Below, piece by piece: positions 6,092 to 6,290 of a DNA stretch of 64,000 bases. Under the pieces are notes generated by a model. The model saw nothing but the letters and a program-made list of their open reading frames with translations, had not been told where the DNA came from and searched no databases. Origin of the DNA: Methylocella tundrae (GTDB lineage Bacteria; Pseudomonadota; Alphaproteobacteria; Rhizobiales; Beijerinckiaceae); contig NZ_CP139089.1 of assembly GCF_038024855.1 (NCBI RefSeq), positions 1,302,001 to 1,366,000 of the forward strand, given 5' to 3'. Made by a program: the position numbers and the translations under genes. How positions within the stretch are numbered: position 1 is the stretch's first letter; each line of letters opens with the position of its first letter.

Positions 6092-6120
6092 TTGGCGAAT
6101 CGCTTCTTCGCGGCTATATT
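6092..6120 (+). promoter_or_regulatory. Sigma-70-type promoter of the small mRNA
   Basis: TTGGCG (6092-6097) and TATATT (6115-6120) are separated by exactly 17 bases. The predicted transcription start is near 6127, giving a transcript of about 164 bases up to the terminator ending at 6290. Confidence 0.6.
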
Positions 6121-6156
6121 CCTTTCATCTTCAACGTAACGGAAGGAGGTGATCCA

Positions 6157-6222
6157 GTGTCTCATTGTCTCATGCTGCGGGCCCGGACCTGGACTCGCGC
6201 CTTTGAGGTTCTCGCCTCCTAA
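6157..6222 (+). CDS. rreB: rreB-like small ORF with extended Shine-Dalgarno sequence
   Basis: A 21-codon frame starting with GTG at 6157 and ending with TAA at 6220-6222. It is preceded by AAGGAGGTGATCCAG (6143-6157), complementary over 15 bases to the usual 3' end of proteobacterial 16S rRNA. This is far longer than a normal Shine-Dalgarno sequence and overlaps the start codon. A promoter (6092-6120) and terminator (6259-6290) frame a transcript of about 164 bases. From memory, the small mRNA rreB of Bradyrhizobium has the same design: about 165 nt, 17-nt SD, GTG start and a very short peptide. The peptide (basic, with two Trp/Arg-rich turns) has no recognisable domain. CCTCCT at 6215-6220, next to the stop codon, could pair with AGGAGG of the SD (6144-6149). 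Homology to rreB is inferred from architecture, not alignment. Confidence 0.65.
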   Translation: MSHCLMLRARTWTRAFEVLAS

Positions 6223-6258
6223 GGTGATCAGGCATCGCGCACCGCGGTGTGACAATGG

Positions 6259-6290
6259 AAGGGCTGTCCTATCGGGCGGCCCTTCTTTTT
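6259..6290 (+). terminator. Rho-independent terminator of the small mRNA
   Basis: Arms AAGGGCTGTCC (6259-6269) and GGGCGGCCCTT (6274-6284) pair with G-T wobbles and are followed by TTTTT at 6286-6290. The position gives a compact transcript from the promoter at 6092-6120. Confidence 0.8.

Follow-up and report, generated by a model that had tools for sequence, protein, structure and literature searches.

What does a small mRNA do with a Shine-Dalgarno (SD) sequence that exceeds the needs of translation? The question is raised by positions 6092-6290 of the window, a 64,000-nucleotide stretch of the Methylocella tundrae genome. The original prediction described a complete unit in this interval, with a promoter, a 15-base match to the anti-SD of 16S rRNA, a GTG start overlapping that match, a 21-codon ORF and a terminator. 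All of these parts are present in the sequence, and the interval is correct.

Comparison with related genomes leans slightly towards a translated small RNA of the CC2171/rreB family in which the SD would pair alternatively with the 16S tail of the 30S subunit or with a mimic of that tail built into the RNA itself.

A small mRNA of the CC2171 family

The unit lies on the forward (+) strand. It opens with a sigma-70-like promoter at 6092-6120, recognized by consensus only, in which a 17-base spacer separates the -35 element TTGGCG (6092-6097) from the -10 element TATATT (6115-6120). The predicted transcript is about 164 bases long (6127-6290), its start being placed from the -10 box and its end from the terminator. 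The extended SD occupies 6141-6158. Within it lies a core, AAGGAGGTGATCCAG (6143-6157), that is perfectly complementary to 16S rRNA. The GTG start codon (6157-6159) shares one base with the SD match and opens a 21-codon ORF (6157-6222) that ends at a TAA stop (6220-6222); the peptide is VSHCLMLRARTWTRAFEVLAS, with the initiator read as Met. An intrinsic terminator (6258-6290) closes the unit, with arms GAAGGGC (6258-6264) and GCCCTTC (6279-6285) followed by TTTTT (6286-6290).

A covariance-model search places this RNA in an alphaproteobacterial family that is known, though little studied. Positions 6133-6283 are a full-length match to RF01867 (CC2171, a Caulobacter sRNA), covering model positions 1-159 of 159 with 102.3 bits in cmscan against a gathering score of 75. 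Thus the gene itself is not new. The window RNA shares with CC2171 the SD-start block, the helix P1 and the terminator. The difference is that Rfam files CC2171 as an sRNA and that its consensus line places a GG-CC pairing within the SD and lacks any helix between SD and mimic. One covarying pair was added to the CC2171 entry in Rfam 15, according to excerpts of the paper (PMC11701678).

The layout of SD, GTG start and terminator, predicted to recur in related genomes, does so: of 60 genomes, the window's and those of relatives, 31 have an RF01867 match with E no higher than 0.001, and 14 exceed the Rfam cut-off. In a small-genome family (0.7-1.1 Mb) none of 20 genomes has a match, and among 14 well-known control genomes one is found in Caulobacter vibrioides only. 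The pattern AAGGAGGTGATCCAGTG occurs with at most one mismatch in 63 of the 385 genomes of the class, some matches lying in apparently ordinary coding sequences (L044; L051, a 57-codon frame). The pattern AAGGAGGTGATCCNRTG is found in 69 of 398 genomes of the phylum. The one genome from outside the window's class is G494, where the match begins a frame that stays open for at least 60 codons (L281). Genome G576 alone has two such matches; the second (L253) sits in an open frame of at least 60 codons, so that the small mRNA looks single-copy per genome by this pattern. Spread by mobile elements was considered and rejected, as plasmids gave short matches only, in four records.

The locus had been likened to rreB of Bradyrhizobium. 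The likeness to rreB, and to rreR of Rhodobacter (Hahn et al. 2017, RNA Biol 14:1353), extends to a length of about 165 nt, an extended SD, a GTG start, a short ORF and a terminator; the ORF of 21 codons and the different peptide set the window apart from rreB. The features that define rreB-like RNAs include a GTG overlapping the SD, a short ORF, and an RNA's own promoter and terminator, all found here (the promoter by consensus only). They also include at least 16 nt of complementarity to 16S rRNA, for which the window has 18 with G-U pairs and 15 if these are disallowed. rreB reportedly binds 30S subunits, is weakly translated and has a translation-dependent stability, and similar sites have reportedly been described in other alphaproteobacterial orders.

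The same Rfam model connects these RNAs. At E 0.1 it matched 12 of 14 chosen loci. One of them, L133 from a Caulobacter bin, lies over the gathering score. Under it are L152, L091, the 14-codon L246 and L195, the 18-codon L264, L258, L266 and L276, and the ATG-start types L235, L055 and L040 (L040 at E 0.028). At this threshold neither the beta-labelled L084 nor the planctomycete L102 is matched. The 14-codon small mRNAs come from genomes of 6-9 Mb and score 51.9 bits (L246, E 7e-8) and 44.5 bits (L195), both sub-threshold. They fit the description of Bradyrhizobium rreB, and their hosts are presumably Bradyrhizobium. The rreB-like label holds in that one model matches both the window and, weakly, these 14-codon mRNAs; a find outside Bradyrhizobium is not new, the locus being a member of an Rfam family. 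The matches suggest that the Rfam "sRNA" CC2171 and the small mRNAs of the rreB and rreR kinds (14-codon rreB-like and 18-codon rreR-like forms) are one alphaproteobacterial RNA family. In Mesorhizobium huakuii, RNA-seq gave products for 34 of 35 predicted sRNAs other than riboswitches, the family member MH_s33 among them, according to excerpts of that study (PMC5596092).

For the comparison, 281 loci gave 258 distinct SD-start sites, each allowed no more than one mismatch within the 13-base core. Of these sites, 34 were dropped for an ORF over 45 codons or for a terminator not found, and the remaining 224 formed 171 clusters. Some of the 171 representatives may be chance sites. Among the matches listed, 70 of the 171 come from a scan for variant SDs (GRAAGGAGGTGATCCBGTG), which selected the SD base and not the partner base.

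Comparison shows the layout of the locus to be shared across relatives. By consensus scoring without a shuffle control, the best -10-like site ends 18-24 bases 5' of the SD in 105 of 169 cluster representatives. The downstream gene, chosen by a longest-ORF heuristic, is on the same strand in 72 of the 171 representatives, on the opposite strand in 84 and not seen in 15, so there is no fixed neighbour. The next long ORF in the window is convergent to the small mRNA. A role as attenuator or leader of a fixed neighbour is rejected on both grounds.

The same long SD also stands ahead of frames of 54-63 codons (L034, L051, L078, L099, L103, L122, L124, L146, L150, L213, L214). These have a signal-peptide-like start, several with a CAACA-type leader, and look like small exported proteins that share the start block.

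The long SD, the ORF and helix P1

In this genome the 16S gene (L062 27-1513, RF00177) ends in the complement of AAGGAGGTGATCCAG. The predicted 15-base match is therefore exact, with 15 perfect bases against the genome's own 16S gene. Against an assumed 20-base tail ending in UUUCU, the extended SD forms 18 contiguous pairs, two of them G-U, with an energy of -34.7 kcal/mol. By arithmetic, a given 15-mer is expected by chance in about 0.008 copies in this genome. Across the 4.42 Mb the 12-mer AAGGAGGTGATC is found twice, once in the small mRNA locus and once at the 16S gene. In Caulobacter an SD is present in just 24.6% of coding sequences, according to excerpts of one study (PMC4117421), a low frequency that makes the long SD of the small mRNA more notable.

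The ORF is kept open in relatives. Among the 130 representatives whose second codon is TCT, TCG or TCA, the first in-frame stop falls at codons 17-31 in 123, compared with 18 and 29 in the other two frames. Comparison of the sequences shows constraint on the length of the ORF, while the peptides differ between lineages. Within lineages the peptides are kept, for instance as VSFTKRCHLAGIAR in the 14-codon forms. The genomes of family f38 (L266-L271, L273-L280) have a common GATCCGATG and peptides of 15-18 codons starting with MSHGSA or similar.

The ORF also contains one arm of the closing helix P1. In the window, CAUUGUC (6163-6169, codons 3-5) pairs with GACAAUG (6251-6257), as indicated by the RF01867 consensus and by covariation. 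In relatives the 5' arm starts from codon 3 or just before it, and the 3' arm lies directly before the terminator. The arm pairs found include UCAUUGUC/GACAAUGG, UCAUCGC/GCGAUGG, CAUUGUU/AACAAUG and CAAUGUC/GACAUUG, and further CAUGGUU/GACCAUG, GUGGGA/UCUCAC and GUGAUU/AAUCAC. A P1 score of 6 is reached by 72 of 132 representatives; 5,000 permutations of the arms give a mean of 24.9 and a maximum of 37. In the TCTCAT subset (79) as in the other sequences (53), none of the 5,000 permutations attains the observed mean score. Comparison shows that P1 covaries. A longer P1, CATGGTTCAGC with GCTGACCATG, is seen in several of the f38 genomes.

An internal copy of the 16S 3' end

In GTG-start forms the ORF carries an in-frame segment that copies the 16S 3' end, typically CUGGAUC, two or three further bases and RCCUCC. 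It complements the SD parts GAUCCAG and GGAGGU. The offsets of its core, [CT]NGGAT, from the start codon peak at 35, 38 and 41 bases, and one frame class holds 49 of the 66 cores between bases 20 and 59.

The original prediction pointed to CCTCCT at the stop codon and proposed that it could pair with the SD. The hexamer is indeed there, at 6215-6220, and its pairing with the SD gains support, CCTCCT being half of a larger 16S mimic. In the window's genus this mimic is split in two. Judged by duplex energy, the first part, CUGGA (6189-6193), has as its partner the SD bases UCCAG (6153-6157), and the second, GCCUCCU (6214-6220), has AGGAGGU/AGGAGG. The second part is also kept in relatives: within the genus, L002, L005, L006 and L009 all have GCCTCCT at the corresponding position (L002 and L003 do not differ over their first 124 bases), and L009 retains it although its stop codon is 30 bases further on. 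With both parts, the SD-mimic duplex of the window reaches -20.3 kcal/mol, a z of -3.4 against shuffles, which assigns it to the SD-mimic subtype.

Evidence for the pairing is provided by position 14 of the SD. The window has CUGGAC and is consequently absent from the 48 representatives counted for [CT]NGGAT. Among these, SD base and partner are A:T in 12, C:G in 5, G:C in 10, T:A in 7, T:G in 6, G:T in 1 and mismatched in 7. Watson-Crick pairs thus number 34 of 48 (41 with G-U), against a permutation mean of 11.5 and a maximum of 24 in 20,000, figures that are not exact probabilities since the sequences are related and counted without a tree. The same motif past base 60 served as a control and gives 5 of 24, with 4.7 expected by permutation. 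When a Roseomonas-like group is reduced to one, 27 of 40 are Watson-Crick pairs (permutation maximum 21). The variant-SD set by itself gives 20 of 31 among the matches listed (maximum 19). In the remainder outside that scan, mostly with SD base A, the covariation is weaker, the count being 14 of 17 against a mean of 10.3, a level that 169 of 20,000 permutations reach. An earlier, looser table (31 of 58, maximum 28 in 20,000) is superseded by the stricter count of 48. With its own label, the duplex of SD and downstream sequence has an energy of -16.62, against a permuted mean of -16.05 (sd 0.10), and none of 20,000 permutations is as low.

The partner base is the first base of a codon yGG, so the residue shifts between Trp, Arg and Gly while the pairing stays. 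A conserved peptide as the sole product is rejected, as the residues at the mimic site follow the RNA pairing.

The covariation shown by this comparison belongs to the GTG-start forms, in which a cis pairing of SD and mimic is well supported. Among ATG-start forms the SD does not favour its own partner over others (AA: 6 of 23 favourable; GA: 7 of 11, the own partner being best in 0). Representatives with SD base T are mismatched in 8-10 of 22 between bases 20 and 59 (partner C in 4, T in 4). In the GTG-start forms, selection appears to keep an internal imitation of the ribosome's mRNA-binding tail. The pairing is absent from the Rfam consensus, and this comparative finding is the new part; its priority is uncertain, as the literature searched, which makes no mention of it, excluded the full rreB paper.

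In addition to CCGGATCAC(C/T), Roseomonas-like loci (L071, L072, L081, L093, L152) contain another segment downstream, GGGTCACC or one resembling it. This segment could pair with the same SD via a G-U pair, and L071 has two more such segments.

The prediction had spoken of a switch. Folding energies do not select one: in nested folding of 64 representatives the SD-mimic pairing exceeds a probability of 0.5 in just 5, and P1 does so in 32. For the window the nested model gives SD:mimic 0.00 and P1 0.88, leaving the mimic pairing outside the predicted fold, and forcing it costs about 21 kcal/mol. A nested fold that hides the SD unaided is rejected on the count of 5 in 64. A pseudoknot estimate, before a penalty, is about level with the best nested fold (mean -0.7 kcal/mol) and keeps P1 in 50 of 64; for the window it is -73.5 against -71.9 for the best fold. 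After a penalty of 9.6 kcal/mol the pseudoknot is better in 1 of 64. Since energy models do not predict the SD-mimic pairing, the case for it in cis comes from covariation. The switch is plausible. The mimic lies between the arms of P1, and SD and P1 bracket the start codon, so the two pairings cross and would form either a pseudoknot or successive folds. A third segment competing for the mimic is a weak candidate, with a mean z of -0.51 against -1.47 for SD:mimic (n=64).

Proposed ribosome sensing and its rivals

In the favoured reading, the small mRNA would be transcribed independently, usually from one copy per genome. Its over-long SD would form as many as 18 base pairs with the 16S 3' tail and in this way dock 30S subunits. 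The ORF would be conserved for being translated more than for its product, and it would house one P1 arm and, in GTG-start forms, the copy of the 16S 3' end. Two near-identical partners, the real 16S tail and the built-in mimic, would then share the SD.

Pairing in trans between SD and 16S is the stronger by 11.5-16.4 kcal/mol (class means), and pairing in cis is stronger in none of 132; thus a 30S subunit can displace the mimic. Free 30S could win the SD, though against an intramolecular rival, which would probably compete either in a pseudoknot that spans P1 or in a fold formed early, while the RNA is still being transcribed. Whether a subunit docks would depend on free 30S and on how the RNA is folded, and a translating ribosome would open both P1 and the mimic pairing. 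The mimic may therefore act as tuning. Without it, a 30S subunit would be held almost irreversibly; with it, occupancy would follow free 30S and folding. An ORF kept open without a required sequence would suit a device that gauges ribosomes through its own translation.

The RNA may serve to measure free 30S or to titrate it, the read-out being RNA stability. It is a tentative proposal that alphaproteobacteria carry a small RNA that senses free 30S by means of a near-maximal SD and an internal 16S competitor. How it folds, how stable it is and how much 30S it titrates would then be set by ribosome occupancy, through translation of an ORF whose exact sequence is of little importance. The SD-mimic pair offers a testable reason for an SD that exceeds the need of translation: a tunable ribosome detector, not a strong start site.

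Alternatively, the mimic may merely delay translation of the nascent RNA, the finished 3' end forming P1 and freeing the SD, with no sensing of 30S. The order of transcription (SD, then mimic, then the 3' arm of P1) would suit such a delay, as would the preference of whole-RNA nested folds for P1 over the rare SD-mimic pairing. Masking of nascent toxin mRNAs has been described, according to excerpts of two papers (PMC11228461, PMC7708055). The start sites of type I toxin mRNAs such as tisB stay masked until processing; there, too, pairing between distant parts of the molecule conceals the SD, perhaps as a pseudoknot. The likeness is one of working only, as the masking sequence here resembles the 16S tail and a toxin-like peptide was not seen. 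However, the mimic reproduces the 16S tail opposite the first half of the SD as well as the second, which goes beyond what concealing a start codon requires, and a delay gives no reason for an SD stronger than useful. We regard it as an unlikely account.

Two further readings are less probable still. The peptide could be the product, the RNA pairings just tuning its translation; the strongly conserved length of the ORF and the conservation of peptides inside lineages agree with this, but the peptides differ across lineages and the codon yGG of the mimic switches between Trp, Arg and Gly together with the SD base, which makes this reading decidedly improbable. At the bottom of the scale stands a trans-acting regulatory RNA whose CCUCC-containing mimic would mask the SDs of other mRNAs. 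In its favour, the RNA ends in a terminator, contains an anti-SD-like segment and is listed by Rfam among sRNAs. Yet variant mimics follow their own SD and depart from the 16S tail, and hence from ordinary SDs: where the SD base is G, the mimic has C in 10 of 11, at a position where 16S has U.

Some beta-labelled and planctomycete lineages may have RNAs of a similar kind that encode other peptides. Bins titled Betaproteobacteria, Gammaproteobacteria or similar hold loci (L079, L084, L087, L089, L095, L097, L131, L135, L157, L160, L161, L163) in which a long SD of this type comes with a GTG start and an ORF of 24-27 codons that encodes another peptide family, VRDxxGxT...GSTR. These loci also contain a GGATCA segment, frequently together with a terminator, and in L079, L095, L097, L131, L135 and L157 a long helix spans the stop codon, scored without a shuffle control. 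The planctomycete loci L102, L162, L096 and L076 have GATCCTGTG SDs and ORFs of 11-14 codons, Cys-rich in L102, L162 and L096. Two of them, L102 and L162, hold CCAGGAT, complementary to their own SD.
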